DNA from: Bdellovibrio reynosensis
GTDB lineage: Bacteria > Bdellovibrionota > Bdellovibrionia > Bdellovibrionales > Bdellovibrionaceae
DNA: 64,000 nucleotides
Assembly: GCF_022814725.1 (NCBI RefSeq)
Contig: NZ_CP093442.1
Coordinates: forward strand, 2,294,001 to 2,358,000
Reading direction: 5' to 3'
The notes below the pieces were generated by a model, which saw only the letters and a list, made by a program, of their open reading frames with translations, ran no database searches and was not told where the DNA came from. A program made the position numbers and the translations under genes. Positions 12,901 to 29,446 of this stretch are shown here, in pieces; within the stretch, counting starts at the first letter, position 1, and each line of letters opens with the position of its first letter.

Positions 12901-15175
12901 GATCAACAAAACACGACAAGTGAGTTGGGGTATCCATCTTGCGCAATCCACACTTCCAGAAGTTAGCGCGCGATGGGGTTTCAATTGGATCAGCAGAACC
13001 CGTAGCACCACGTCCAAAATAAACATATGCGGCGCCAGGTGCAGTACCAATAGCTGAATTCGATCCATTCATCGGCATGCCATAGTAGTTGTTACCATTG
13101 GCAAAGGCGGTAGCGCCGTTCCAGCCACCATCAGCAGGCGTGATCGTTGTACAATTTGGACAGATGCCTTGAACTTTTAATTTGAAATTAGTTGCACTTG
13201 CATTTGGATAACGGTCGCCTGGTGCCCCAACGATAAAATCAGATCCACCAAAAAGTTTATTATCAGAACGGCGAACCCTGTAAAGGCCATCGACGTCAGC
13301 GCCGCCTGAAATAGAGTGACCAAAACGAGCCCCATTATGCGGAGCCGGAGCGTAGATCTTTAAGAAACGAAACTTTGAATCCGACCCAGACGGAATCCCT
13401 GTGGCAAATGGAGTTTCGTAACCTACACCATCTTTAGATCCAAAATACAACGCCACATAACCCGTTGCTAGTTCGTACTTCGCATCCCCTGGTAAACTTG
13501 GTGAAGCAACGCCATCCCAGTCGCCTTTAGGAACACCAATACCAATGTCATCATACCCATCGGCATTGATATCGCCGATAAAACTGACTGAATATCCAAA
13601 TTCAGGATCATCAGTGATTTGAACTTTTTTAGAATCATCCCAATAAGCAGCAGGATAAAGTTTCATGTTTGCCCATAGCTGAACTGCAGAACATGTCGCA
13701 CCTTCGACCAAACCGTTACATGTTTCTACGTTTTGCTGAAGATCCTTAATTCGATTCGGTGATTTTAAGCCTTGAGGACTACCGAAGAAGGCAAAGGCAG
13801 TACCATCATAACGAATATTATTGCCGGTGATATCAAAACCCGGAGCACCAACAAGCAAGTCTTGGCAAGCCTTACCTAAGATACTGTCGCCATTGATATT
13901 ACCGCTACCACTTAAAGACTTACCGAATTTTGAGCGATGGGTTAAATCTTCAAAAGTAATAACTTGCGGGTCTTCACCCGGCTTCACTGGATTTCGCGAC
14001 GGAGTCGGAGTTGTTTTCAAAGAAAACTGAGATGAACCACTTGGTTTATAAGAATAATAAATATAAACCGCACCCGCAGATTCTTCTTTTACGCCAAGGT
14101 TAGCAATTGAAACCGACGGAAGACCGACAGCCATATCAGGATAACCATCACAGTTAAAATCCCCAGAAGTCAAAGCCTCGCCCATAAATGAAATACCAGA
14201 GTCTGCAGCTGACATCGGTGGAAGTTCATTGAATGTCGGAATACCTTTAATATAAGTGCTTAAATTATCAAAAATCAGGGTTTCGTTTTTAACACCATCG
14301 TTATAATTTACATGGATTGAAAGATCATCCACTTTGCCGATGTTCAGATTTGCTGAAGAAGAAAAAACGATCGTTCCAGAACCCACCATAGGATCGGATA
14401 CAGGTGTAGAGCCTTTGTAAACACGGCTGGTATAAAATTCATTTTTATATTCTGTATTAACAACTGGAGTTACCTTTGCAAATGGCAACGACCCAATTGA
14501 AATCGGACTTAATTCATAAGCTGGGGTTGGGAACGATGAATTTGTCGAAGCTGTCACAACCTTCGTTGGACGTTCATAAGTTCCATCAAGATATTTAACT
14601 TGAACTACAAAGTGATAACGAGTTGAACCTTCTAAACCTCTGAATACATATTTTGTGTCAATCGCAGTCGCATCAGGGGTTGCCCAATTCGCCGTGTTGG
14701 TCGCAGTGGGATCTTCATACTTTTTATAAAAGATTTGATACTCTTCAACTTTATTTGGATAAACCCATGAAACCACCAGATTTCCATCTGAATCCTTGAT
14801 CACTGCATCAGAACCAGAAAAAGGAGTTAAAGTGATCGCACTTAGTTCTTTATTACCACCAACAGAAGTTGAACCATCCGTACCAACGACCTTGAATGTG
14901 TATGATGTGTTTGGATCAAGATCACGAATAATAGCTTCACTAAATGAAGTCGTCACTAAAGCTTCAGAGGAAAGATTATAAAAAACTTTATACTCTCTAT
15001 ACCGGATATGGTTATTCCAATAAACACGCACTGCTGTTGGCGATAACACCTCTACGCCTTCAACCCCAGAGAAATCCTTTAACAAGCTTCCGGTTTCAAT
15101 TTTTTCCGTACAAGCACCAGTAAAAATCAATGATATCAGTAACGCCAAGAGCGTGATATTTTTAGTAAAGGACAT
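9968..15175 (-). CDS. FG-GAP (integrin alpha-like) repeat lipoprotein, paralogue 2
   Basis: 1735 residues from the ATG at 15175, which has AGGAG six bases upstream; a TTG at 15193 extends the frame but lacks support. Signal peptide with lipobox IFTGAC. Residues about 35-215 hold two fibronectin type III-like domains (REYKVFYN, EEYQIFYKKY). From about 340 to the C-terminus there are a dozen or more FG-GAP repeats with calcium loops such as GDFNCDGYPD, GDINADGYDD, GDLNNDGYED and GDVNGDGTLD, enough for about two seven-bladed propellers. It is a paralogue of the upstream gene and overlaps its end by 14 bases. Surface display is inferred. The FG-GAP family mediates protein or cell binding in integrin alpha chains. 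Confidence 0.88.
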   Translation of the reverse strand: MSFTKNITLLALLISLIFTGACTEKIETGSLLKDFSGVEGVEVLSPTAVRVYWNNHIRYREYKVFYNLSSEALVTTSFSEAIIRDLDPNTSYTFKVVGTDGSTSVGGNKELSAITLTPFSGSDAVIKDSDGNLVVSWVYPNKVEEYQIFYKKYEDPTATNTANWATPDATAIDTKYVFRGLEGSTRYHFVVQVKYLDGTYERPTKVVTASTNSSFPTPAYELSPISIGSLPFAKVTPVVNTEYKNEFYTSRVYKGSTPVSDPMVGSGTIVFSSSANLNIGKVDDLSIHVNYNDGVKNETLIFDNLSTYIKGIPTFNELPPMSAADSGISFMGEALTSGDFNCDGYPDMAVGLPSVSIANLGVKEESAGAVYIYYSYKPSGSSQFSLKTTPTPSRNPVKPGEDPQVITFEDLTHRSKFGKSLSGSGNINGDSILGKACQDLLVGAPGFDITGNNIRYDGTAFAFFGSPQGLKSPNRIKDLQQNVETCNGLVEGATCSAVQLWANMKLYPAAYWDDSKKVQITDDPEFGYSVSFIGDINADGYDDIGIGVPKGDWDGVASPSLPGDAKYELATGYVALYFGSKDGVGYETPFATGIPSGSDSKFRFLKIYAPAPHNGARFGHSISGGADVDGLYRVRRSDNKLFGGSDFIVGAPGDRYPNASATNFKLKVQGICPNCTTITPADGGWNGATAFANGNNYYGMPMNGSNSAIGTAPGAAYVYFGRGATGSADPIETPSRANFWKCGLRKMDTPTHLSCFVDPSSFRVLFPRSYYKDDGTGKKLTSAGFGTSVALVGDSSRFDATNTAITNKSDSNADGFAEAVVSASYFSNFEKTNSGALWVYFGNQWKYYSYNAFYQIDAVSPTNKDLDWNDTIAQCDSFTVNNNATKQKCAPTLIRSNSIAANSLLGKDPEAMAVGDITGDGLKDVVVGAVGDATRATNSGAVFAFTSLTGVGLTSNFLHSYNTNAKAYDYFGRSVTVGNFDGDFTGTTPLNDIMAGAFLDKSTKNGGGAVYGYYSSGQPLSSVNSVPSVTLTDSLASSQNLGYESIRIVGDINRDGYADAVAKISRPSANSTTYTTDAVVFYGSKIGLVTTSFCKENLTRVFKPTSQSDVYCFPSSAPAQGVTLEDIALPQLITKPTNMSASWAQRAFNVNDANGDGFADVMFIDYNTNGQAVVYYGSRGGLQAVNNPQWVPAYGDPQIISKRWMGMTGSDVDLLDDLDPQFREIVYAGDFNGDGVSDIVITNPTASAFNNMNRTGGWVDTTGADGTALAGNSGWMCLPEADPDCLNGVNAHQMGRVWIYYGSTNGVQTPRTKGYSNGTYPDEPSVTNALASTNTTYMIDTYGTEGVPVASQPCSGAPANTCKMQFLYSPMIKNVDYGYHRMKHQFGASVAILDIDKDGYDDMIVSAPGWEDIACYYDIDTDARFNYGRVFIYKGSANGLIAASRDSYYNNNYNANSCTDDNLWQSLDASLDQDGLSNGVRALMPPLFDGSLFQNQTRRHFGWKVSAAGDLNNDGYEDLFVSAPFETPKAGLDRSGTGYVYYGPICGSDNVTTMWDYLEDNLNKQLEFSDPNIAVSPLPGCVRSSGTAKPAPQAFYAWDARSYDYTGLTVFGGRAKKADFNGDGFDDLILGAMGWDDQINSVTNLGRGVVFFGSNSGLHSEDYPDSVVVTDSSGKVKPFIISSEDTEVQPEYFYSNTSSGDVNGDGTLDIMVPSSRHDGFDPLKGINIGTFFMLY

Positions 15176-18100
15176 AGACCACTCCTGTCGCAAATGCTTT
15201 TCCAGATGGATGGCCCCGACCAGGCGCAGCCATTAGCAAGTCGGCAACTCCGTCGCCGTTGATGTCTCCACTCGCAGAACTTGAAATATAAGATCCTTCA
15301 AAAGCCACTCTTTCTGGCAAATAAATCAAAGAAGGCTCACACACAGGTGTTGAACCGCCATAACATCGTGGCGTCGGTGAAGCCGTAGCATTGATCTTAA
15401 GTCCCAATGGACCACCGTAATAAACAACGAATGCGCCAGTATCTTCTAAGATCTCTTCTAGATCATAATCTTTACCAGTCATATTCACGACGATATCGGC
15501 ATAACTGTCGTTATTGATGTCACCTACGGCAGCTACTCCATATCCAAAATAATCCGTAGCGGTCAGCGCACCTAAAGAGATCGGGGCAATTCGCTGAACT
15601 TTCGGTTGAGTACCAGTCGCGTGAAGAGTGTTTTCCCCAATAGGACTGCTAGCAAAGAAGTCAGAAGAAAGAATACTTGCAGCACCATAGAATGCATACA
15701 CAGTTCCCACTTGTGCCCCATAGAACGCATAAACCTTTGATGACGCGGGCCCAGAAACTACAAGGTCCGTCAATGTATCGCCATTGATGTCACCTGGAGC
15801 CACCACATCATAGCCGAATTTCTCTCCGGCTGTAGCAGGATCCATTTTTTGAAGTGGCGTATACACTAAACCTTTATTGCTTCCTTTAAATAAGTAAGCA
15901 CGGCCTTTGTTGGCGTTAAATTGAGGATCTCCAACGACGAGCTCATCGGTTTCATCACCGGCTAAATTGTCTAAAGATTTTAACCCAGTTAAGCTCCACC
16001 CAAACATCACCCCGATATCCGGAGAAGCAAGAATTTGAACTTTACAAACCTTTGGTGTCGTATCCGTGCAAGGGTTTTCTACAACGACATCCGCAGCACC
16101 CCCGGCACCATCATCCAATCTTAATGTTCCATTAGATCTATTCGTCTGAGGTCCAATATTTGAACCGTAGAACACATAAATACGGCCGTTATTTGAGTTA
16201 GAGAAATCAATTCCTACTGGAATTACGCCGGCAGCGGGTTCATCTGTTGTGTTAGTCGCAATCGCAAAATCGCTATAACCGTCTTTATTAAAATCACCAT
16301 AAGTAGCCGCGCGATTGCTTGTGCCGTAGTTAGTAATATTTAATGCCGAAATAGATGAAGAACCCATCATCACACCGGATGTGTGAAAGTTGGCCGTATT
16401 AGATCCGCCGGAAATCGCGAACTTCAGTGGATTTTGACCCACCGGCGCCAATGAAGGAGCATTACCTGATACAACCCCACTTGAAGATCCGTAATAGATA
16501 TATGAACCGTAATAGCCAATTATCAAAATGTCATCATAAGCATCGCCGTTCACACTGCCAATGCGATAGAACTCTTTACCAAATCCAGGATCAAGATCAA
16601 CAACAAGCTTTAATGGTTCACCAACAGCAGCTGGACTGCGTGCAGGATCCGGTGATGTCACTAGTCCCGAAGAGCTTCCATAATAAATTGCTAACTCTAC
16701 TGTGTTTGCGACAGAGATATGCGCTGCCATGTCGTCATATCCGTCACCATTCACGTCGCCGATAATTTTCGCACGTTCAAAGTGATAGTTTAACTCTTTA
16801 CCAAAGTTAACATTCAAAGTTTTATCTGGCACTGACACTGAAGAAGCAAACGAACCATTAGAATTAAAGATAAAACCAGCGCCGTTATAATAAGTCGGAC
16901 TTGATTGGAAAGGTGCAGAAGTAAATAGGTCACCGGTACCATCGCCGTTGAAGTCGGCTCCGCCAGCACCGCCAAAGCCAAACATCGCGCCTGCGGTTAA
17001 ATCCTTAGCATATATAATAGAAGCACCAAATGGATTTACGCCACCGCTATACCATGTACAGCCTGTAGTACATCCTAACGAATCATCATCAGATAATTGC
17101 GGAGAATCAATACGAGTTGCACCTTCATAACCTAAAGCTGAAACATCGGGCTTATAAAGATAAATCACACCGTGGTTCATCAGCTGTTTTTTACCATCAC
17201 TGCTAGCAACAGTGCGATAAGGTGCTGAAACGGCAAACGAAGGAAGTCCGCGGGAAACAGATTCAATATCATCCATTGTTCCAAGTGAATATCCAAATTG
17301 AACGCCAGATTCGGCAGGACTTGTGTGAATCACTTGATTTTCACAGTGCTGTAAAGCGCCTGTTGTTACGTTGGTATTCCGGGCGTTACAGGCAATACGA
17401 TTGACTGCCGTGATATCTTGTTGTGGAGCTAATATTCCTAATATGCCACCCGTTGTAAAATCATTCGAACGAGGAGTCATATAATAACCAAAAACCGCGC
17501 CCGCAGTAGTACTGCCAGACACTGTCGATCTTGGAGCTCCTACAAAAACAGCTCCAGAAATATTTGGTGTAGTATTAACCGCACCAATAATATTAGTTAA
17601 CGGATAACCGTTTTGGTTTGGAATACCTAAGATGCTTGCCCCATAACCAAGAACATTGATGTGAGTCGCTTCAGGGCTTCCGCCACCGGCAACGTCCGGA
17701 TAGGATTCTTTACAGGTCCAACCCAGGATTTTTTGCTTATCTGTACCTGAATCAAGCATGTCACCTTTACAGACAATAATCGAACCGCGACCTGCTGCTC
17801 TGTCAGGGACACCAATTACTAAGTCATCACACTTAGTAAAATCGTAACCTTTTTCGGCAGGAGCTGGAGTCGTACGGAACACCCAGCTTCCGTTGTTCAC
17901 ACATTTTCTAGAATTAAACGCAGTACCGATCGCGCCACCGAAATCTTCGGTGACACTTTTACCCACAAAGGTTCCATCAGTAAGATCACCAAGAGCCAAT
18001 GATTCTGCATCAATGATCGCATGAGTTTTGGCATTTGAAACTGGCAATAAACCAAAGCGGTCACCACGCAATACATGCACTTGGCGCACTGACGTGTTTA

Positions 18101-19823
18101 ATTGAACAGCCATTGCTAAATCGTCATAACCGTCGTTGTTGTAATCACCGAAAACGATGGATTCAACATTGTAGGTAGTTGAATTTTTATATTTAGCAGG
18201 ACGGCACTTAAACGACGTTGGATCACAGGTAGCTTCATTTAAACCATATGAATTGCCGCCAGAACCAGTCACTAAACCTTTTACTGGATCACCGAACACA
18301 ACAAAGACCGACCCTTCGGCAGTTTGGATTGCTAAGTCATCACAAGTGTAAATCTTTTTAATTTTATTAATATTCGCCGGTGGTGTCGCCGGAGTGAAAA
18401 GATCGTCACACAAACCGACGCGATTAGCTTTTGAATCGGCTAGATCTGTGTAACGGCTAAAACAGTCACCATTCACATTTCCTACCGACAAACGCTGCCC
18501 GAGACGAGTATTTGATGAAAGACCTGTATAATAGATCAACTGAGCATTCGGAAAAGAATTATCCGCACTTGGAGAAACATCAGTCTTTAAAGTGGGAGCC
18601 GGATCAATTGGATTTCCATTAGCATCAAATCCTGGAGGAGCATCGTAACCGTAGTAAACAACAACCGCACCGCCAGATTCATAATGGCGCTCACTAACAT
18701 AAGGGGTTGCTCGCGGTGCTGCCATTGCAACGTCTTTCAAACCATCACAGTTGAAATCACCAACAGACACATTATAACCAAGCTCTTGCATTCCTAAACC
18801 GCCACCCACGAGACGAGGAATGATCGGTGCTTTGGCACCAGCACCATCAAGACTGCGAATCAAAGGCTTCGTGATGCCCGAAGATCCATCCAACAAAACG
18901 TCAACGATAGTGACTTTGCCAGTCGTATCTGAAACCTTTGCATACATATTTTTAGAACCCGGCGAAATCGGGATGATCGAACGGAAATAATCATTGCCAT
19001 TCACAGTGGCTAAACGAATATCCGTAAAGCGCTCAAACACTTCCGTTTTATACGTGGTATCGCCACCTTCGGTCCAAAACCAAGGGAAGTTTCCGATAAA
19101 TGCTGAATTGATTTTTACTGTCGGTAAATTTGTTAATTGGGATTGAACCAAAACACAAGGGGCTTTGGTGTTGATGTAAGCTTCGGCCATATTTGTAGGC
19201 TCATAAGTTTCATCTTCATAGTGAGCCATCACCCAAAAACAGTATTTTGCACCACTAGCAAGAGACGTAACACCCACAGTGCTTTTATCAATAGCAGTTG
19301 CTGTCGGTGTTGAAAGATCCCACGTTTCACTTTCACGTTTGGTGTAAACTTTGTAAGTGACATCGTCACCGTTTTTAACCCAGTTTACCTCCACCGTCCC
19401 GTTGGCCTGTGCAGTTAAGCCCGAAGAAGGAACACCGGTGAAAGTCGCCATTGTTTTTACGGGAATAAAATTCTCAAAACCAAATTCTTCATCAGTTAAA
19501 GCATCAACACCCGTAACAGAAAAATCATAGTAAGTATCCGGGGAAAGGCCCGTGATATTCGTCGTCGCAAAAGTTTCAACCTTCACTGGCGTATTAAAGC
19601 CTTTGCGGTAAATTCGATATTCTTTAAAGCGCGCCTGAAGCGACCAAGAAAGTTTCACCGTCGTTGGTGAAATTGCTACCGCCGAACTAAGTCCTTCGAA
19701 CTTAGATGGTAACGTGGTTCCCTGCAGCCCTGCTTTTGAGCAAGATACTGCCGTCAATCCTATAACGATCCACAGTATTGTTAATAAGCACTTCATAGCT
19801 TTCATCAGTATATAGATCGGCAT
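15162..19823 (-). CDS. FG-GAP (integrin alpha-like) repeat lipoprotein, paralogue 1
   Basis: Up to 1553 residues. The start is uncertain: ATGs at 19823, 19805 and 19796 all precede the signal peptide and none has a clear Shine-Dalgarno. The lipobox is TAVSC. Two fibronectin III-like domains occupy about 40-215 (FKEYRIYRKG, VTYKVYTKRE). FG-GAP repeats follow from about 350 to the end, with calcium loops such as GDFNCDGLKD, GDYNNDGYDD, GADFNGDGTGD, GDVNGDGYDD, GDFNKDGYSD and GDINGDGVAD. It has the same order of domains as the next gene, so the pair arose by tandem duplication. It is the first gene of the minus-strand surface operon. A candidate promoter with a palindrome lies about 115 bases upstream. 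Confidence 0.87.
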   Translation of the reverse strand: MPIYILMKAMKCLLTILWIVIGLTAVSCSKAGLQGTTLPSKFEGLSSAVAISPTTVKLSWSLQARFKEYRIYRKGFNTPVKVETFATTNITGLSPDTYYDFSVTGVDALTDEEFGFENFIPVKTMATFTGVPSSGLTAQANGTVEVNWVKNGDDVTYKVYTKRESETWDLSTPTATAIDKSTVGVTSLASGAKYCFWVMAHYEDETYEPTNMAEAYINTKAPCVLVQSQLTNLPTVKINSAFIGNFPWFWTEGGDTTYKTEVFERFTDIRLATVNGNDYFRSIIPISPGSKNMYAKVSDTTGKVTIVDVLLDGSSGITKPLIRSLDGAGAKAPIIPRLVGGGLGMQELGYNVSVGDFNCDGLKDVAMAAPRATPYVSERHYESGGAVVVYYGYDAPPGFDANGNPIDPAPTLKTDVSPSADNSFPNAQLIYYTGLSSNTRLGQRLSVGNVNGDCFSRYTDLADSKANRVGLCDDLFTPATPPANINKIKKIYTCDDLAIQTAEGSVFVVFGDPVKGLVTGSGGNSYGLNEATCDPTSFKCRPAKYKNSTTYNVESIVFGDYNNDGYDDLAMAVQLNTSVRQVHVLRGDRFGLLPVSNAKTHAIIDAESLALGDLTDGTFVGKSVTEDFGGAIGTAFNSRKCVNNGSWVFRTTPAPAEKGYDFTKCDDLVIGVPDRAAGRGSIIVCKGDMLDSGTDKQKILGWTCKESYPDVAGGGSPEATHINVLGYGASILGIPNQNGYPLTNIIGAVNTTPNISGAVFVGAPRSTVSGSTTAGAVFGYYMTPRSNDFTTGGILGILAPQQDITAVNRIACNARNTNVTTGALQHCENQVIHTSPAESGVQFGYSLGTMDDIESVSRGLPSFAVSAPYRTVASSDGKKQLMNHGVIYLYKPDVSALGYEGATRIDSPQLSDDDSLGCTTGCTWYSGGVNPFGASIIYAKDLTAGAMFGFGGAGGADFNGDGTGDLFTSAPFQSSPTYYNGAGFIFNSNGSFASSVSVPDKTLNVNFGKELNYHFERAKIIGDVNGDGYDDMAAHISVANTVELAIYYGSSSGLVTSPDPARSPAAVGEPLKLVVDLDPGFGKEFYRIGSVNGDAYDDILIIGYYGSYIYYGSSSGVVSGNAPSLAPVGQNPLKFAISGGSNTANFHTSGVMMGSSSISALNITNYGTSNRAATYGDFNKDGYSDFAIATNTTDEPAAGVIPVGIDFSNSNNGRIYVFYGSNIGPQTNRSNGTLRLDDGAGGAADVVVENPCTDTTPKVCKVQILASPDIGVMFGWSLTGLKSLDNLAGDETDELVVGDPQFNANKGRAYLFKGSNKGLVYTPLQKMDPATAGEKFGYDVVAPGDINGDTLTDLVVSGPASSKVYAFYGAQVGTVYAFYGAASILSSDFFASSPIGENTLHATGTQPKVQRIAPISLGALTATDYFGYGVAAVGDINNDSYADIVVNMTGKDYDLEEILEDTGAFVVYYGGPLGLKINATASPTPRCYGGSTPVCEPSLIYLPERVAFEGSYISSSASGDINGDGVADLLMAAPGRGHPSGKAFATGVVYVLY

Positions 19824-20109: not shown

Positions 20110-20961
20110 TTAACTGGCTTTTTTATTTTCAGCGGCGCTCGGGTCAACACCGATTTCAATATGAAAAACTCCAAAATCAGTTTCAATAGGAATAATCAAA
20201 ACAGGTTCACTGCTTTGACTTTTTACTTTGATTCTTTCACCGTAAATCACGGTCGGTAAAGCTTGTTGAATCTGATAATTTTTTTGGTTGAGCTGTTCTT
20301 TTGCTACGCCAAAAATAATATTCAAAAGTTCACCAGCCGCATCGGCATTGTCGTCACAAATGTCTTCGTATTTTTCGCCCAGCATTTGTTCAACAATCGA
20401 CAAAAACAACTGCTTAGGAAAACGCAAAGCAAAAGTTCCATCGAATTTTCCACTGACAATGCTTAACACCGCCGCGATTTCCGTATCAATAGTCGGGCCT
20501 TTGCCTTTTAAATAAATCGGCATAGAACGACAGTTGATCGAAGCTTGGAGTTTTAAGGTTTCCAATGCTCCGTGCACAAAAGGATTAATAATTTCTGTAT
20601 CAAACTTGATAGGCTTAACTACCGAATTGGCAAGTTCAGGAATGTCCTTCGCTTCTCTGTTCAAAATAGCCGTATCTAAACCTGATGCCCGTATACGCGA
20701 CACCAAACGCTTATCCATGTTAATCCCATACGTTGGAATATCATGGCTTTTAAGCGCCTTTGATGCCACCACAAGATCCGCAAGCGGAGCTTCGTGGATA
20801 TTGGGCGTATTTTCAAAATCGATCACAAAGGCCCTGAATGCGGGCTCTGCAGTCAACCCAGCTAACACATTTTTTAGCTCAGCACTGTCGGATCGATTTA
20901 AATCTTCAAGCGGGATCAGAATACAGGCCCCGCTCTTTTGAAGGACTTTTAATTTCGCCAT
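20110..20961 (-). CDS. STAS-CheX fusion protein, probable CheY-P phosphatase
   Basis: 283 residues. Residues 1-105 resemble a STAS (anti-anti-sigma) domain, but the usual phosphorylatable Ser of the DSxG loop is replaced by a NIHEAPLADL segment, so regulation by phosphorylation there is unlikely. Residues about 125-275 resemble CheX/CheC-type phosphatases and carry the ExxN signature as E211-L-L-N214. In that family the Glu and Asn dephosphorylate CheY-P. The gene is the last of the chemotaxis operon, four bases after the cheY stop, which supports a role in switching off the adjacent CheY. The STAS half may dock it to a partner. The domain calls are by motif only. Confidence 0.75.
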   Translation of the reverse strand: MAKLKVLQKSGACILIPLEDLNRSDSAELKNVLAGLTAEPAFRAFVIDFENTPNIHEAPLADLVVASKALKSHDIPTYGINMDKRLVSRIRASGLDTAILNREAKDIPELANSVVKPIKFDTEIINPFVHGALETLKLQASINCRSMPIYLKGKGPTIDTEIAAVLSIVSGKFDGTFALRFPKQLFLSIVEQMLGEKYEDICDDNADAAGELLNIIFGVAKEQLNQKNYQIQQALPTVIYGERIKVKSQSSEPVLIIPIETDFGVFHIEIGVDPSAAENKKAS

Positions 20962-20965
20962 GGAC

Positions 20966-21376
20966 CTAGCCAGCTTTCAAAGCAGGCGTTGCTTGCGCAA
21001 TCGCTTTGCTTAGTTTTTCCTTTAAACCTGCAGGAGTAAATGGTTTAGTTACATAGCCAGAAACACCAAGAACGACAGCCTCTTTCACTTGTGACGCTTC
21101 AGTTTCAGCAGTAACAAGATAAAAAGGAGTTTTAGCGATTGTTGGTGTAGAACGAACATGCTTAAGCAAGTCGATACCTTTCATCACTGGCATATTCCAG
21201 TCAGAAACTATCAAGTTATACGGCTTTCCTTCAGCGATTGCTTTTTGAACCAATTCCCAAGCCAAAGCACCATTTTCTGCTTCACTTACTTGGAAAGAAC
21301 CAAGTTCAGTCAGTGCCTTCATCACAATTTTTCTCATGGAGCGCATGTCGTCCACTACTAAAATTTTTAATTCCAT
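20966..21376 (-). CDS. cheY: CheY-type single-domain response regulator
   Basis: 136 residues from the ATG at 21376, which has a GGGGGG Shine-Dalgarno eight bases upstream; a TTG two codons earlier is less likely. The protein is a single receiver domain with acidic pair D9-D10, phospho-acceptor D59 in VSDWNMP, T89 and K111 in GYVTKPF, so all active-site residues are present and there is no output domain. It lies between cheR and the CheX fusion. It is expected to take phosphoryl groups from the CheA encoded 5 kb upstream in the same operon. The target (flagellar switch, gliding machinery or other) cannot be read from the sequence. Confidence 0.9.
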   Translation of the reverse strand: MELKILVVDDMRSMRKIVMKALTELGSFQVSEAENGALAWELVQKAIAEGKPYNLIVSDWNMPVMKGIDLLKHVRSTPTIAKTPFYLVTAETEASQVKEAVVLGVSGYVTKPFTPAGLKEKLSKAIAQATPALKAG

Positions 21377-21396
21377 ATTCAAAACCCCCCGGTTTT

Positions 21397-22230
21397 TTAA
21401 GCTGTTTTATTAAATACTGATTTAAGTTGATAAAAAATAGCGCCCATCGCGTCTTTTTGTTCGAAGTCCTGGGAAATGCCGATCATGCTTTCCCCAGCGC
21501 CCATCACAAGAAGACCATTGGACTCAAGTTGATTAGTCAGACGAGAAATAATCTCTTTCTTCGCTTCAACTCGTTGATAAATTAAAACGTTACGGCAAAG
21601 AATTAGATCAAACGTACCAACTTGACGGAAAGATTCACGCAAGTTCACGCGGCCCGTTTTTACCCTTGATCTTAAGTTAGTATTCACTCGGTAATTGCCA
21701 TCACCTACCGGTGTGAAATGCTTTTGCAATTGCGTTGGAGTCAAGCCACGGCCGACTTCCAAAGTGGAATAAGTAGCTTCTTCCACACGACGAAGTGCTT
21801 TAGCAGAGATATCACTGGCAAAGATTTCATAATCAAAGGTGCTGTTGGTTTTCGCGAACTGATCACAGATCATCGCCAAAGAATAAGCCTCTTGCCCCAT
21901 ACTGCTGGCAGCTGACCAGAAACGAAGCTTCTGACCGGGCTTTTGCTTTATAAGGTTTGGAATGATTTCCTGCTCAATAGCGGTGAACAAACGCGCATCG
22001 CGGAAGAATGAAGTTTCGTTGTTGGTCGCTGAATCGATCAACAATTGCTTCAACTGGCCAACCGCACCTTCTTGAACTTTACTGTAAAGTTCATCGATGC
22101 CGTTAAATTTCATCGTACGCACAATTTCTTCCAGACGATTCTGCAACTGAAAGTAATTTTCCTGGGAATAGATGATTCCCAATTCTTTTTCAATCCATTG
22201 TGCAAAATAGGATAAGCGAGGATCTGTCAT
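21397..22230 (-). CDS. cheR: Chemotaxis protein methyltransferase CheR
   Basis: 277 residues. CheR methylates glutamates of chemoreceptors with S-adenosylmethionine. The N-terminal helical CheR domain (about 1-70) is followed by the methyltransferase domain with ETSFFRDARLF near 73-83, the SAM-site segment FWSAASSMGQEAYSLAM near 103-119 and LILCRNVLIY near 207-216. The usual AxCSTGEE motif is changed to AASSMGQEA here. The start ATG shares one base with the stop of the upstream gene (TAATG), indicating coupling. It forms the adaptation pair with the CheB encoded two genes upstream. Confidence 0.9.
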   Translation of the reverse strand: MTDPRLSYFAQWIEKELGIIYSQENYFQLQNRLEEIVRTMKFNGIDELYSKVQEGAVGQLKQLLIDSATNNETSFFRDARLFTAIEQEIIPNLIKQKPGQKLRFWSAASSMGQEAYSLAMICDQFAKTNSTFDYEIFASDISAKALRRVEEATYSTLEVGRGLTPTQLQKHFTPVGDGNYRVNTNLRSRVKTGRVNLRESFRQVGTFDLILCRNVLIYQRVEAKKEIISRLTNQLESNGLLVMGAGESMIGISQDFEQKDAMGAIFYQLKSVFNKTA

Positions 22231-23069
22231 TAGGCCGCCCTAGGGACTGTTTTTCCCGGTTGATTTCTAGAGGTGATTTCATCTAAAGATGAATAAATTC
22301 GGTGGTATGTGCTTTTGTTTTCGGACCACCATGCTTCTTCACTTCCGTTGGCGCTGGTCTTATCAGCAAGATCCCAAAGAACTGTTAAAGACTCATCTGC
22401 AACTGGCCAAAGGTTATCCCAACCAGATTGCTCAGAGTTAGATTCAGCTTGAACCTGAATGGTAGAACAAATTTTTTCGACTAATTTTTCTGAAGCTTCA
22501 GCGCGGATAAATCTAAAGATACCTTTTAAGCAGCTAAGTTCCTTCACCAGGTTACTAGCATGCATGCGGCGATTCTCAGAATCTTCCTTCACTTGAGCCA
22601 TTAAAACTTGGATTTCAAAACGCGATTCATCCAAAGGCGTTGCGCTTAAACTATCAAAAAATGCTGGCTCTGATTTTTCGAATTTAAAATCATGGTCATT
22701 TTTCAATTGGTCCGCCGCAAGGTTATGAAAGAAATCTTGAAGAGCTTGGGTTAATTGGTCAGAGTCCATAAGACCCTTTTTTATGAAGATTTGTCCAATC
22801 GGTTCACGCTGCTCATCAACGATCTGTTGAACTTTGGCTTCAAGCTGTGCCGTCCAGATATTTAAAATGCGGCAAGCACGCACAAAATCAACTTTGTGTT
22901 TAGTTTGATATTTTAAAGCTTTTAATAAATCGGCGTGGCCTAATAATCCATGCTTGTGCAGCACTTCGGGAACAGAAGGCAACACGGACAATTGCTCGAT
23001 CACTGATTCAAGCAGTTGTTGTTCTGACAGAAGGCCTTTTTCTACTAGGAATTCCCCAAATAACTTCAT
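22230..23069 (-). CDS. GspE-N/MshEN-like protein in the chemotaxis operon
   Basis: 279 residues, no signal peptide, no membrane segment. Two copies of a helical motif like the N-terminal domain of type II secretion ATPases are visible: GEFLVEKGLLSEQQLLESV near 5-23 and GQIFIKKGLMDSDQLTQAL near 92-110. Related MshEN domains bind cyclic di-GMP through LGxxLVxxG...LxxxLxxQ halves. Here the Leu-Gly is partly altered, so binding is only possible. The C-terminal 150 residues are acidic and unrecognised. It sits between cheB (4-base ATGA overlap) and cheR (TAATG overlap), which points to a role in the chemotaxis array. Confidence 0.65.
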   Translation of the reverse strand: MKLFGEFLVEKGLLSEQQLLESVIEQLSVLPSVPEVLHKHGLLGHADLLKALKYQTKHKVDFVRACRILNIWTAQLEAKVQQIVDEQREPIGQIFIKKGLMDSDQLTQALQDFFHNLAADQLKNDHDFKFEKSEPAFFDSLSATPLDESRFEIQVLMAQVKEDSENRRMHASNLVKELSCLKGIFRFIRAEASEKLVEKICSTIQVQAESNSEQSGWDNLWPVADESLTVLWDLADKTSANGSEEAWWSENKSTYHRIYSSLDEITSRNQPGKTVPRAA

Positions 23070-24187
23070 GTAGCCTTCCTTTTTAAAATTGAACTTGATT
23101 GCTCAATTAAAAAACTTCTCATCTCTTCTAGACTCAATTGCTTATCAAAAGCGCCCGAGTCAGCGACCGCTTTAGGCATGCCATACACAACACAAGTTTC
23201 CTTGTCCTGAATTACCACGCCGCCACCCGCCTTCTTAATGGCTAAAGCACCTTCACGACCGTCCGCACCCATTCCGGTGAAAACAAAGCCCAGCAGGTTT
23301 TGACCGTAAATCTCTGCAGCACTTTCAAATAGATTATCGACGGCGGGACGAACCGACTGACGTTGGGGACCTTGATCTAATTTAATTTGTAAGTTTCCGC
23401 CTAAGCCCTTCACTACGCGCATGTGATAGTTGCCCGGAGCGATATACACGCGGTTAGGCTCTACCAGTTCTAAGTCTTTCGCTTCTGCGACTTTCAAACC
23501 CGAAAGCTCACTCAATCTTTCGCCCAATGCGGCGGTAAATACCGGAGGCATGTGTTGCACGATAAAAATAGGCACATTGATTTGAGTGTTAAAGTTGGTA
23601 AAAACTTTTTCAAGAGCCGTCGGACCACCCGTTGAGCTACCAATAACGATGGCTTTTGTTAAAAAGGTATTCCATCTAATTGGCGGATATGAAACTGGGG
23701 GCGGCGTACTTGATAAAGAATTAGGAGCCGCAGTACTTATTGTCGTCGTACTGCGGTCCGTGTGAATAAGCCCTGCAGAGAAGGCCAATTCAATTTTTGG
23801 TAATAATAGCGACCTGATTTTTTCACTTAATCCTCCAGGGGATTGAAGCTCCTCAGGGGTGAAGTTTGGCTTTTGCACGAAATCAAAAGCACCACGGTTT
23901 AAGGCTTTTAAGGATGCAAGGGCACTGCCTTTAGTAGCACCGGCAAACATAATCGTTTTCACTTTTATGTTGTGCTTATTCATAGCATCTAAAAGCTCTA
24001 AACCGTTCATTTCAGGCATTTCAACATCTACAATCGCAAGATCGATCTGCTTTTCCTTAAGCATGGTCAAAGCGATGGCACCGTTCTGGGCAGTACCCAC
24101 AACTTCAATCCCTGGGGCAGCCCTAAGGGCTGCCGACAACTGGGAACGCATCACTGATGAATCATCGACGATCAAGATCTTACGCAT
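23066..24187 (-). CDS. cheB: Chemotaxis-specific methylesterase CheB
   Basis: 373 residues. Receiver domain 1-120 with acidic pair D8-D9, phospho-acceptor D54 (AIVDVEMPEMNG) and K106. A Ser/Thr/Pro-rich linker (about 143-170) joins it to the methylesterase domain. The catalytic triad is visible: S185 in IGSSTGGPT, H212 in VQHMPP and D309 in TGMGADG. CheB removes methyl groups from, or deamidates, chemoreceptors and is activated by CheA-dependent phosphorylation. It lies nine bases after the MCP gene and is coupled to the following MshEN-like gene. Full length with no missing residue. Confidence 0.93.
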   Translation of the reverse strand: MRKILIVDDSSVMRSQLSAALRAAPGIEVVGTAQNGAIALTMLKEKQIDLAIVDVEMPEMNGLELLDAMNKHNIKVKTIMFAGATKGSALASLKALNRGAFDFVQKPNFTPEELQSPGGLSEKIRSLLLPKIELAFSAGLIHTDRSTTTISTAAPNSLSSTPPPVSYPPIRWNTFLTKAIVIGSSTGGPTALEKVFTNFNTQINVPIFIVQHMPPVFTAALGERLSELSGLKVAEAKDLELVEPNRVYIAPGNYHMRVVKGLGGNLQIKLDQGPQRQSVRPAVDNLFESAAEIYGQNLLGFVFTGMGADGREGALAIKKAGGGVVIQDKETCVVYGMPKAVADSGAFDKQLSLEEMRSFLIEQSSSILKRKAT

Positions 24188-24196
24188 AGTTTAGCC

Positions 24197-26137
24197 TTAA
24201 GCGGACTGAGCCTTGTTAACGATTGCTTTAAGTCTTTCAGCTAAGGCATTCAATTCTTGGGAAGCAAACAATGTTTGCTCTGCACTTGCCTTACTTTCGT
24301 TTGAAGCACCTGATACAACCTTGATGATTGTCGCGATGCTATCAACGCTCTTCGTTGACTCAAGAACAACACGTGATACTTCGTTCGTAGTTGCAGTTTG
24401 CTCTTCTACCGAAGCCGCAATCGCACCTGCGATTGAATTTAATTTATCCATTGCTTGAGAGATTCCAGAAATTGCTTCTACCGCATTTTTAGAATCACCT
24501 TGGATAGCACCGATTTTGTTCGTGATATCTTCAGTCGCTTTTGCAGTTTGTTTAGCAAGTTCTTTAACTTCATTCGCAACAACCGCGAAACCTTTACCAG
24601 CGTCACCAGCACGAGCCGCTTCGATCGTCGCATTTAGCGCCAACAAGTTAGTTTGTTGAGCAATGGAGCTGATCACTTTGATCACGTTGCCGATTTCCTG
24701 GCTGCTAATACCAAGTTGCATGATTGTTTTGTTAGTTTCTTGCGCGCGTTGCAATGTCATTTTAGACATTTCAGCAGATTCATTTGCTGAACGAGCGATC
24801 TCACGGATAGATGCAGCCATCTCTTCAGTGTTTGTAGCAACAGTCTTAACACCGCTAGCTACTTCACTTGCAGAGTTAGAAGCCAAGTGAGATTGTTCGT
24901 TCGTGTGAACTGCTGTGTTAGACATTTGAGTTGCAGTCGCTGTTAATTCACCCGCTGCTGCAGCCAAATTGTTTGCAGTTTCTTCCATAGACTTGATCAT
25001 CATCTTAACTTGAGTGATGTCAGTTGCGTATTTAACAACTTTATATGGTCTGCCGTTCATGTCGAAGATTGGATTATAGGAAGCTTGGATCCAAATTTCT
25101 TTACCACCTTTACCAAGGCGACGATATTGGCCAGCATCAAATTCACCATTGTTAAGTTTAGACCAGAAGTGACTGTATTCCATTGAATTCACCAAAGCTG
25201 GGTCGCAAAACATTTTATGATGTTTGCCTTGGATTTCTTTCATTTCGTATCCAAGAGTTTTTAGGAAGTTCTCATTGGCCGAGGTAATTGTGCCATCCAT
25301 GTTGAACTCAATAACTGCCTGAGCTTTATTAATGGCAGTAATTTTTCCTTCAAAATCCGCAGTCTTAAGTTTTTGCGCAGTGATGTCGACTGCGAACTTA
25401 ACTACTTTGAATGGTTTTCCATTCATATCATAAATTGGATTGTATGAAGCTTGAATCCAAATCTCTTTACCACCTAGGCCCACGCGTTTGTATTCACCTG
25501 AGTCGAATTCCCCGCGGTTTAACTTATCCCAAAGCATGCGATATTCAGGAGAGTTTGCATAGTTCGTCTCACAGAACATTCTGTGGTGTTTACCTTGAAT
25601 GTCGCGCAAATCATAACCAACTGTTTTGCAGAAATTTTCATTTGCTGTAATAACAGTACCATCCATATTAAACTCAATAACTGCTTGGGCTTTTGATATG
25701 GCTTGTACTTTTCCTTCATAATCAGAGTTCTTAAGCTTTTGCGCAGTGATATCTGTCGCAAATTTAACAACTTTAACTACCTTGCCATTGTCGTCATAGA
25801 CTGGGTTGTATGATGCGTGAATGTAAATTTCACGACCGCCATTTGCATAGCGTTTATATTCAGATTGTTCAAACTCTCCGCGATTCAACTTATCCCAGAA
25901 AGCGCGATATTCAAAACCGCTCGTATAGGCAGGATCACAGAACATTCTGTGGTGTTTACCAACGATGTCCTTAAGCTCATAACCCATAGCTTTACAGAAG
26001 TTTTCATTCGCCGTGATGATCGTACCATCCAAGTTGAACTCAATAACTGCTTGAACACGGTGAATTGCTTCTACCGTACTTTTAAGATCGTTAAAGCTCA
26101 TATCGTGGTTTAATTTCTCTGCTGTTGCCTTGCTCAT
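24197..26137 (-). CDS. Soluble methyl-accepting chemotaxis protein with three tandem PAS domains
   Basis: 646 residues with no transmembrane segment, so a cytoplasmic receptor. Three PAS units of about 123 residues (about 20-140, 141-263, 264-385) are close copies; each begins with QAVIEFN-DGT-I-ANENF and contains the HHRMFC or HHKMFC segment and the [11 protein letters not shown]-type segment with its PAC motif. The MCP signalling hairpin follows, with the conserved tip around [20 protein letters not shown] near 493-512. Methylation helices carry E/Q-rich heptads. It lies between cheW and cheB. Conserved His/Met/Cys in each PAS might bind haem or a flavin, but no specific ligand can be assigned from sequence alone. 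Confidence 0.9.
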
Positions 26138-26167: not shown

Positions 26168-26629
26168 TTAATTTTGTTCTTTAATGTTTAATTCTTGATA
26201 AATACGTTCAATACCAATCACGCTCAGAATCGAGTCGTGTGTTTTATAAACCCCATCCATAAATTTCTTTATAGAGTTGTCTACAGTGTCTGGCGTTGGT
26301 TCAAAGTCAGCTTGTGATACTTCCATCACATCGCCGATTCTATCCACCAGAAGCGACAGTAGATTCCCGTCAATACGGCAAACCACTGTCATCTTTTCAT
26401 CTGCATCATTTTTCATAAGTCCAAACAATTCGCGTAAACCAATCGCCGTAGCGATTTGCCCACGAAGGTTAATCAAGCCCTTAATAAAATCCGGCGCCAA
26501 ACGAATCAAAGTCAGAGGCATAGGTTTGGTAACCTCTTGCACTTGTGTGACATCGATTCCGTAAAGACGGTCGGCCAAATAAAACGTGGCGAACTGGCGG
26601 GTTTCTTCATGACGTAGTGTTTGTGCCAT
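26168..26629 (-). CDS. cheW: Chemotaxis coupling protein CheW
   Basis: 153 residues made of one CheW domain. Conserved features are FYLADRLYGIDVTQVQEV near 17-34, the LAPDFIKGLINLRGQI region near 44-59, and VDRIGDVMEVSQADFEP near 96-112. CheW links receptors to CheA. The gene starts three bases after the cheA stop and precedes the MCP gene, so the kinase, adaptor and receptor are expressed in order from one transcript. Confidence 0.92.
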   Translation of the reverse strand: MAQTLRHEETRQFATFYLADRLYGIDVTQVQEVTKPMPLTLIRLAPDFIKGLINLRGQIATAIGLRELFGLMKNDADEKMTVVCRIDGNLLSLLVDRIGDVMEVSQADFEPTPDTVDNSIKKFMDGVYKTHDSILSVIGIERIYQELNIKEQN

Positions 26630-26632
26630 TTA

Positions 26633-29446
26633 TTATCCTGCCTTCTTAAAAATGTGTTTATCGATAGCCTGAATCAAAGAGTCAGGATTTAGCTTTTCTA
26701 GATAAGCATTAAAACCAGCTTCCAAGCCTTCTTTAAGACTTCTATCGTCGTATTTCGTCGTCAGAGCTAAAAGAACGATGTCCTTCCAGCTTTCGTCTTT
26801 TCTGATTTTTCCTGCCAATTGAAGACCGTTCATTTTTGGCATTTCGATATCAGATATAATCAAAGACACTTCGTGACGTGGCATTTCTTCTAATTTTAAA
26901 ATTGCATCAGAACCGTCAATAGCTGTGATGACTGTATAACCCGCTTTTTCAAGGTGGGTTTTTACGTGCTTTCTAAAGAAAGCATTGTCTTCCGCATACA
27001 AGATGTTGTGGCGACGGCGTTGAATAGCATCAACCACAACTTCTGGAGTTCTAGCATCATGGCTTCTGGCTTGCGGGATAAGTTCATCAATAATTTGTAA
27101 GCTATCAACGATAACGATGATTTCTTTTTCAATTAGCACGTTACCAAGAATGCCTTTTTTATCAGAGAACGCAGATTCAACGTTCGCCTCCGTTTGCAGA
27201 ACATCTAAAATCTCGGTGACCTCGATACCGAAGTATTGGCCATTCTTTCTTGTCACGATCACCGGAAGGATTTCGCCTTCTGACTTTGATGGCTCTGCAT
27301 GATAGCCCAAAAAGCTATTCAATGAAATCAGAGGCAAAATAGATCCACGGTAATGAATAACTCGAGTATCCCCAGATTTTTGCACATCTGAAGTTTTAAA
27401 TTCTTCAAGACGGTGTACAAGGTCCAACGGAATAGCATGACGTGCTTGAGAATTAAGTCTGAACAACAAGAACTCTTGCGTTTCAACTCCACGAGTCCCT
27501 GCACTGATTGAGTTTTGGTTTAAAGCCTCGTGTTGGCTTGACATCAGGCTAAGGCGTTGAGCGATACCCATAACATCTAAGATTAAGGCAATCGAACCGT
27601 CACCAAGAACTGTAGCACCTGAATATACATTCACTGATTTTAGGAAACGAGCCAATGGCTTCACCACGATATCCGCAGTGTCCACGACTTCATCCACAAT
27701 CAAACCGAAAAGCTGTCTTTCAGCTCTTACGACGACGATGTTAATAACATCAGGAAGTGACTTAGCTACTTCATTTTTAGAGCAGAAGCCTAGCAATGAC
27801 TTCATGTTCACCAACGGCAATAAGTTGCCGCGCAAACGATAAAATGCATTGCCTTGAAGATATTCAATGTGGCTTTCAGAGTTTGAATTATCAACACGCA
27901 CTAATTCAACAAGCTTCACTTGCGGAATTGCGTAACGATCGTCATCGCAACGAACGATCATCGCTGGTACGATTGCCAACGTCAGAGGGATTTTAAGGCG
28001 AATCGTAGTGCCTGCACCTTGCGTACTATGAAGTTCTACGACACCACCGATTTTATCGATGTTACTGCGAACCACATCCATACCCACACCGCGACCTGAA
28101 ATATTGGTCACTTGGGCAGCCGTTGAAAAGCCAGGAGCAAAGATCAAGTTATGAACTTCTCTTTCGCTTAAGGCAGCCGCTTTATCCGGAGTAATAAGAC
28201 CTTTTTCTAAAGCCTTATTTAAAATTTTATCTTTGTGTAAACCACGGCCGTCATCGCTAATTTCGATGACAACTTGTCCACCTTCGTGGAAAGCGCGAAC
28301 TGTGATGTGTCCCGTCTCGGCCTTACCGGCTTGACGACGCTCTTCTGGAGTCTCCATTCCGTGGTCACAAGAATTTCTAATAATATGTGTTAATGGATCT
28401 TTCACAGCTTCAAGCAAAGTTTTATCTAATTCTGTTTCAGTACCTTGAAGGTGCAATTCCATTTTCTTATTTAGGTCACGGGATAAATCGCGCACCAGGC
28501 GTTGGAACTTATTTAAAATATTTCCAATCGGCTGCATGCGGGTCTTCATCATTTCGTTTTGAACTTCAGTAGTCACAACATCCAAGCGTTGGCTCAAGTT
28601 TAAAAACTCAAGATTGTCTTCTTTACTTGAATACTGAAGAACCTGGTTACGAACTAAAACCATTTCGCCCATTAAAGTCATAAGACGGTCTAACAACGAA
28701 ACTGGAACACGGATGCTGCTTGATGGATCAGAGCTATTTGCATCATCACCTTGAGCCGGGGCAGCACTTGCTGTCGGAGCCGCAGCTGCTTTTGTAGCAA
28801 CTGGTTTTGCAATTACAGCTGGCGCCGGTTTCGCTTCATTCTTAACCGGCTCATGTACTGGATTTGATTTCACCTCAGAAACTACAGTAGAGATCTGTGA
28901 AATCTCTGCTTCGATACTTTCAATCAGTGACGGATCAATAGATAAAGCAGAATGATGATCTTCGGCGCTTAGGTCAGACGCAGATGATTTTTCAACCATT
29001 TCGTTGAGTTCAGCGTTTTCTTTCATTGGATGAAGTTCGCCACCTACAGACTTGATTGATGAATCCACCATTTGCGGAACGATGGTTTCTACATCTTTTT
29101 GGCTCTTTTCAGTTTTCTCTCTGCGAAGCTCGACCATCTTGGCAATAACGTCGATCCCCTTATACAGAAGTTCGATTAGATCGTTACTCAAAGCACCGTG
29201 GTCATCACGTACCGGCTCCAATCGTGTTTCCATCACATGTGCGATGTTTCCGATTGGATTAAAGCCAAAAAGAAATGCGGATCCCTTTAATGTATGAATG
29301 TCACGATAGAGCTCGTCGACTACTGCATTTGTGAAGTCGCCTTTTTCCATTAGGGCGAGGTTAGAAGAAATTCGTTCTCCTAGGTCGTCACACTCCTGCC
29401 AAAATTCTTTCAGACCTAGCTCAAGATCGTCTTTTACATCCGACAT
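26633..29446 (-). CDS. cheA: Hybrid chemotaxis histidine kinase CheA with C-terminal receiver
   Basis: 937 residues. Domains in order: HPt with phospho-acceptor H51 (DIHTLKGSAFLFGF); a long Ala/Pro/Lys-rich linker where the CheY-binding P2 domain would sit, with no P2 recognisable; dimerisation helices near 240-300; HHPK-type ATPase with the N-box HIIRNSCDHGME near 352 and G-boxes DDGRGLHKD and GRGVGMDVV; two consecutive CheW domains (about 480-610 and 650-790); and a receiver domain from about 817, phospho-acceptor Asp in ISDIEMPKMNG near 863. Hybrid CheA proteins phosphorylate their own receiver as well as CheY. It is the first gene of the operon. A TATAAT box lies about 32-37 bases before the start codon. 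Confidence 0.93.
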   Translation of the reverse strand: MSDVKDDLELGLKEFWQECDDLGERISSNLALMEKGDFTNAVVDELYRDIHTLKGSAFLFGFNPIGNIAHVMETRLEPVRDDHGALSNDLIELLYKGIDVIAKMVELRREKTEKSQKDVETIVPQMVDSSIKSVGGELHPMKENAELNEMVEKSSASDLSAEDHHSALSIDPSLIESIEAEISQISTVVSEVKSNPVHEPVKNEAKPAPAVIAKPVATKAAAAPTASAAPAQGDDANSSDPSSSIRVPVSLLDRLMTLMGEMVLVRNQVLQYSSKEDNLEFLNLSQRLDVVTTEVQNEMMKTRMQPIGNILNKFQRLVRDLSRDLNKKMELHLQGTETELDKTLLEAVKDPLTHIIRNSCDHGMETPEERRQAGKAETGHITVRAFHEGGQVVIEISDDGRGLHKDKILNKALEKGLITPDKAAALSEREVHNLIFAPGFSTAAQVTNISGRGVGMDVVRSNIDKIGGVVELHSTQGAGTTIRLKIPLTLAIVPAMIVRCDDDRYAIPQVKLVELVRVDNSNSESHIEYLQGNAFYRLRGNLLPLVNMKSLLGFCSKNEVAKSLPDVINIVVVRAERQLFGLIVDEVVDTADIVVKPLARFLKSVNVYSGATVLGDGSIALILDVMGIAQRLSLMSSQHEALNQNSISAGTRGVETQEFLLFRLNSQARHAIPLDLVHRLEEFKTSDVQKSGDTRVIHYRGSILPLISLNSFLGYHAEPSKSEGEILPVIVTRKNGQYFGIEVTEILDVLQTEANVESAFSDKKGILGNVLIEKEIIVIVDSLQIIDELIPQARSHDARTPEVVVDAIQRRRHNILYAEDNAFFRKHVKTHLEKAGYTVITAIDGSDAILKLEEMPRHEVSLIISDIEMPKMNGLQLAGKIRKDESWKDIVLLALTTKYDDRSLKEGLEAGFNAYLEKLNPDSLIQAIDKHIFKKAG

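Follow-up and report, generated by a model that had tools for sequence, protein, structure and literature searches.

The window analysed here, a stretch of 64,000 nucleotides of the Bdellovibrio reynosensis genome (contig NZ_CP093442.1, positions 2,294,001 to 2,358,000 of the forward strand), carries a chemosensory gene cluster in the order cheA, cheW, a three-PAS chemoreceptor gene, cheB, X, cheR, cheY and a gene for a CheX-domain protein, where X stands for a protein of 279 residues. The X ORF is intact, running from an ATG at 23069 to a stop at 22230, and is present as a single copy in the host genome (one contig, 3.58 Mb). The features of the cluster, in positions of the window, are the following.

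26633–29446, minus strand: cheA, with an HPt domain (HTLKG, His51), a kinase, two CheW domains and a C-terminal receiver
26168–26629, minus strand: cheW
24197–26137, minus strand: chemoreceptor with three PAS domains
23066–24187, minus strand: cheB, with a 4-base overlap with X
22230–23069, minus strand: protein X, 279 aa, with an MshEN-like N-terminal half and a CheA-P1/HPt-like C-terminal domain (ORF, profiles, model and fold)
21397–22230, minus strand: cheR, with a 1-base overlap with X
20966–21382, minus strand: cheY of a DDM-MRK type, not the DDSKA-H type seen after X in relatives
20110–20961, minus strand: CheX phosphatase domain (E 2.6e-19), preceded by a weak STAS match (E 0.13, below the cut-off)

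The overlaps of four bases with cheB and one base with cheR bear out the coupling of X at both ends that the first-pass annotation had described. Elsewhere in the window, positions 15162-19823 encode a predicted lipoprotein-like surface protein of 1553 aa with FG-GAP-like repeats, as judged by eye.

The first 113 residues of X are MshEN/GspE-N-like. A search with an MshEN profile, which had been proposed in the first-pass annotation, gave a match to NCBIfam NF053729 (c-di-GMP_motif, MshE-related) at E=1e-8 and 34.8 bits, just under the curated cut-off of 38, while one homologue (L043, G053) reached 44.8 bits and passed it; at E<=0.01 the same profile matched 37 of the 43 homologues, the window included (best 4.4e-17). 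When the X family profile was run against solved structures, PilF was found at E 1.7e-7 and MshE (5htl) at E 1.6e-4. An AlphaFold2 model of X built from the 43 homologues (mean pLDDT 91.1, pTM 0.60) showed eight helices in the N-terminal half with an exact 29-residue period, the short helices beginning at residues 4, 33, 62 and 91 and the long ones at 16, 45, 74 and 103. The same spacing is seen in four MshEN half-motifs of 24 residues each, separated by 5-residue spacers and starting at residues 3, 32, 61 and 90, which match 8, 7, 1 and 6 of the 11 positions of the published motif, respectively.

22992–23063, minus strand: half-motif 1, residues 3-26, with Arg replaced by Leu3 and Leu by Phe4, and with Gly5 and Gln26 kept
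22905–22976, minus strand: half-motif 2, residues 32-55, with Arg replaced by Ser32, Leu by Val33 and Gly by Pro34, and with Gln55 kept
22818–22889, minus strand: half-motif 3, residues 61-84, nearly unrecognisable and identified mainly by the helix spacing
22731–22802, minus strand: half-motif 4, residues 90-113, with Arg replaced by Pro90, Gly92 kept and Gln replaced by Phe113

The best pair, residues 3-26 and 32-55, matches 15 of 22 motif positions (8+7), a score reached in none of 20,000 shuffles of X, for which the maximum was 13. The two half-motifs reported earlier are therefore real, but the 29-residue period puts their number at four. The structural match of X to MshE (Z 9.4 over 58 residues) lies in the range of chance helical-bundle matches, and the N-terminal claim thus rests on the sequence profiles. 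DUF4388, a weak, sub-threshold Pfam match overlapping the MshEN-like region (E 0.0014, 19.1 bits vs 25), was rejected as the main label, and the FumaraseC_C and BrnT matches were at chance level.

The first-pass annotation had gone on to suggest that X may be a cyclic di-GMP sensor connecting this messenger to receptor adaptation. In MshE, each motif carries Arg1, Leu2, Gly3, Leu17, Leu21 and Gln24, the G40I and G11L variants showed no stabilisation by ligand, and XpsE has lost binding, with G11, R38 and G40 among its altered positions (available text of PMC5013675). The previously reported changes of Arg9, Asp12 and Gln32 cost fivefold at most according to the same text, so that loss of the Arg alone is weaker evidence against binding. 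In X, the motif Arg (position 1) is found in none of the 43 homologues in any of the four halves (Leu3, Ser32, Asp61 and Pro90 in the window), and the motif Gly (position 3) in none of the 43 in halves 2 and 3 (Gly5, Pro34, Val63 and Gly92 in the window), which leaves no neighbouring pair of halves with both glycines; the Gly of half 2, at the place of which the window X has Pro34, is one whose replacement in MshE does away with binding. At position 24, Gln26 is present in 40/43 and Gln55 in 31/43 homologues (halves 1 and 2), and the leucine cluster of the window X is mostly kept and mostly aliphatic (L19, V23, V33; L48, L52, F4). In all 43, on the other hand, an aromatic residue, Phe or Tyr, takes the Gln position of half 4 (Phe113 in the window) and Phe occupies position 2 of half 1, which points to a conserved site of the X family's own and not that of MshEN.

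Cyclic di-GMP binding by X is thus unlikely, and the MshEN part seems no longer to serve as a nucleotide site, although with both Gln residues and most of the leucine cluster kept, weak binding is possible. It is accordingly as a rival, and a very improbable one, that we retain the reading of X as a cyclic di-GMP receptor reporting the cell's level of the messenger to the adaptation enzymes. The match to an MshE-related profile, the retained Gln26, Gln55 and aliphatic cluster, and a motif score that ties the best among the 43 (15/22) and exceeds that of the PilB of the same genome (14/22, itself with Lys for Arg) speak for it; the Arg and Gly losses, the behaviour of the MshE variants and of XpsE, and the even greater degeneration of the motif in most X relatives speak against it. 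As a control, this PilB has Lys in place of the motif Arg and Thr in place of the second Gly, and yet scores 14/22, so that the motif score alone cannot separate receptors from non-receptors. More generally, MshEN profile matches should not be taken for cyclic di-GMP receptors without checking the Arg and the Gly. Of the earlier interpretation, the MshEN kinship and the place in a chemotaxis operon, which is conserved across the phylum, stand, and cyclic di-GMP binding falls away. Two further matches were noted in the host genome. Its PilB-like ATPase (L126, G000:C1:1174258-1174413) passes the MshE-related cut-off with 54.7 bits, and with its Arg replaced by Lys and its second Gly by Thr, its own binding of cyclic di-GMP is doubtful; a frame of 654 residues with a receiver-like start (L127, G000:C1:415724-415873) has a sub-threshold MshE-related motif at 33.4 bits.

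The C-terminal half of X, in which the earlier reader had missed an HPt-like domain, has the CheA P1/HPt fold in the predicted model.

22260–22670, minus strand: CheA-P1/HPt-like five-helix domain, residues 134-270 (fold and profile)
22533–22535, minus strand: Ser179 at the phospho-accepting His position (SCLKG for HxLKG)

Among the top structural neighbours of this domain were the P1-CheY6 complex structures 3kyi and 3kyj (3kyi_A, Z 16.2, rmsd 2.4, with 128/128 residues of 3kyi aligned; 3kyj, Z 16.1, rmsd 2.4, 129 residues), and Salmonella CheA P1 gave Z 14.7. The first structural rows consisted of CheA P1 domains and designed bundles (BRIC, 3u3b, 2lch, 8tn1), while the best row outside these two groups had Z 10.6. 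Foldseek returned a probability of 1.00 with E-values all >0.05 (best 0.085); given these weak E-values, the case for an HPt domain rests on the probability, the Z scores, the coverage and the profile search. In the latter, the X family profile found CheA P1 (2ld6, CheA, E 7.9e-6; 1tqg, 1.6e-5). Pfam Hpt matched 6/43 homologues at E<=0.01 (best 2.7e-6), and a Pfam Hpt search of the window X gave no match.

In the window X, Cys201 lies at the partner-acid position, 22 residues after Ser179; the P1 domain of the window CheA has the same His/Glu+22 spacing, with Glu where X has Cys. With neither the His nor the partner acid present, the window X is most likely a pseudo-HPt. In the family, the His column is empty in six of the 43 rows (L043, L099, L101, L103, L106, which is at a contig end, and L122), and among the 37 homologues with the site the His is kept in 17. 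Glu or Asp at +22 accompanies the His in 17/17 cases and its absence in 8/20, an association with an uncorrected Fisher p of 7e-5. On a tree built without the His/acid columns, the His state changed at least 11 times; kinship-aware differing pairs all pointed the same way, with a median p of 0.06 over independent pairs, and the His/acid link is thus weaker once kinship is allowed for. From these residues, the HPt part seems to have given up carrying phosphate in the host genome and looks active in other genomes. A tie between the His and a downstream cheY was also considered, and the counts among the 37 rows do not support it: 11 rows with His have an adjacent cheY and 6 do not, whereas 15 rows without His have a cheY adjacent or fused and 5 are without cheY or unresolved.

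X was not found in any of 23 congeneric genomes, nor did these contain a cheR with more than 33% identity to the window cheR. A two-sequence profile found X in 4/140 genomes of the order and a three-sequence profile in 49/368 genomes of the phylum. Loci were retrieved for 40 of the 49 places in the phylum, in addition to the earlier ones, and five weak ones were left out (G136, G138, G140, G190 and G213). In a wider contig collection, a single-protein query gave no X relatives and an alignment-based scan gave eight, of which L078 and L085 were examined and most of the others came from the same contigs as loci already in the set; outside the phylum, the distribution of X was covered by the pattern-based contig scan only. 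Two records that carry X are titled Phyllobacteriaceae (L078) and Nitrosovibrio (L083). The gene order of L078, cheW-mcp-cheB-X-cheY-cheR, is of the Bdellovibrionota type, and both are probably mislabelled MAGs.

The cluster type to which X belongs in the phylum is cheA-cheW-mcp-cheB-X-cheY-cheR. X directly follows cheB on the same strand in 38 of the 42 placed homologues, the other four comprising two directly after cheW, one at a contig end and one that was unresolved, and it is itself directly followed by cheY in 25/42 and by cheR in 8/42. In one locus (L094:6235-7413), a fusion joins X to a receiver domain (Pfam E 2.5e-21) in place of the cluster's separate cheY, which is not found after it. 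X is thus a conserved, dedicated component of one Bdellovibrionota chemosensory pathway. The DDSKA-H type cheY of the relatives is missing from the host genome, where the best match has 30% identity, while the copies elsewhere have 34-52% identity to that of L086, the first of the two L111 copies being the exception. The host genome therefore lacks the receiver partner to which the relatives point, and the HPt-like domain of the window X could be a relic.

Three homologues of 122-129 aa (L099, L101 and L103) are without the HPt domain. An adjacent cheY was found in 0/5 homologues with loss of the whole HPt domain versus 26/35 of the others, the window included (Fisher p 0.003), in a count without L096 and L106, both at contig ends, and L107, whose neighbours were unresolved. 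L122 was dropped from it because the remainder of its X is open in another frame; the remaining four come from two lineages, and the concurrence of HPt loss and loss of the adjacent cheY is suggestive only. In L122 itself (6296-7170), the X frame breaks after 167 aa, through either a frameshift or an assembly error. Sixteen X homologues (L105, L106, L108, L112-L114 and L116-L125, L115 excepted) carry one to three copies of a short linker motif, AALESL(K/R)E, which no other ORF of the retrieved loci contains; a docking peptide is a possible identity for it.

Setting out from the observed domain kinships, the His/acid and Arg/Gly losses, the gene order and the one receiver fusion, we infer docking, the identity of the partner, and the effect on signalling and its direction as follows. 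X would combine a tandem MshEN scaffold, now degenerate, with an HPt domain like that of CheA P1. In the relatives this HPt domain, often His-bearing, may pass phosphate to the product of the adjacent cheY or park it there, while the window X would dock receivers (CheB, CheY or the receiver of CheA) without carrying phosphate, and once docked would compete with, recruit or buffer phosphotransfer from the CheA P1 domain. The MshEN-like half would hold X on the array or on a pathway component as a protein-binding module. Recognition of receiver domains is known for HPt domains and recognition of proteins for GspE-N folds, so that docking is the simplest function common to both, and it is on this ground that we tentatively favour X as a pseudo-HPt adaptor docking receiver domains with its MshEN-like part as a protein-binding scaffold, a reading whose chances we put slightly short of even. 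A broader version of it is more doubtful, namely that the X family is a kinase-less P1 on an MshEN-derived scaffold which, from its place between cheB and cheY/cheR across Bdellovibrionota, sets the destination of CheA phosphate (CheB adaptation versus CheY output) and has repeatedly turned from a carrier into a phosphate-free decoy, the window X being such a decoy.

Two other explanations were weighed against the pseudo-HPt adaptor. X may be a working phosphotransfer or phosphate-sink protein in the relatives and, in the host genome, a relic kept by operon structure, which we consider rather unlikely. The His and acid kept in 17/37 homologues, the phosphorylatable-type cheY adjoining X in 25/42, and the joint absence of the DDSKA-type cheY and the His from the host genome are consistent with it. 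However, the ORF of the window X is unbroken and shows translational coupling, the model still gives it an HPt fold with confidence, and His-less members are also found beside an intact cheY, which argues that His loss is not simply decay. Less likely again is a purely structural or localisation role in the chemosensory array, for instance as a link to a type IV pilus or pole component via the GspE-N-like fold, with the HPt-like bundle only a dimerisation module. GspE-N domains without nucleotide binding do bind partner proteins, as in XpsE/XpsL, and the homologues L099, L101 and L103, which are without the HPt domain, suggest that the N-terminal half can act alone; the receiver fusion of L094 and the co-variation of His and acid, in contrast, both point to receiver chemistry in the family.

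X resembles several known systems in part. With MshEN (Vibrio cholerae MshE 1-145; NF053729) it shares the 24-residue half-motifs, their 5-residue spacing, the helix pairs, and a profile and structural match, but it has four halves in a row, has lost the Arg and one Gly per pair, and is joined to an HPt-like domain instead of an ATPase. CheA3 P1 of Rhodobacter sphaeroides (3kyi) superposes on X over the whole five-helix domain, and many members of the X family share the LKG signature and the His/acid spacing of CheA P1; unlike CheA P1, X stands apart from any kinase core, and in the window copy Ser replaces the His and Cys the Glu. The AHP6-type pseudo-HPt proteins of plants likewise have an HPt fold without the phospho-accepting His, but belong to a eukaryotic cytokinin relay and are without an MshEN part. 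The N-terminal domain of XpsE/GspE (Xanthomonas) has the MshEN fold, cyclic di-GMP binding having been lost in XpsE through changes at Arg, Gly and Leu positions (available text of PMC5013675); XpsE is, however, part of a secretion ATPase, whereas X lies in a chemotaxis cluster. MshEN proteins carrying CheA or CheX domains were noted by Wang et al. 2016 (same text), and MshEN in chemotaxis is thus not new as an idea. A functional parallel is offered by Myxococcus PilB, which acts upstream of the Dif chemosensory proteins (available text of PMC5544727). No description of X was found in the available main text of the literature on MshEN/HPt, Bdellovibrio che genes and arrays (including PMC5013675, PMC10333796 and PMC5544727), nor were the four-half array, the HPt partner, the repeated silencing and the fixed cheB-X-cheY/cheR position found there.

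Chemotaxis in predatory Bdellovibrionota is little studied. X combines a fold that looks retired from cyclic di-GMP binding with a phosphotransfer domain that looks to have been often silenced, and the pseudo-HPt adaptor reading can be tested on homologues that naturally occur both with and without the His. If it is true, phosphate flow would be steered in a new way, by a conserved part placed between the adaptation enzymes and CheY.
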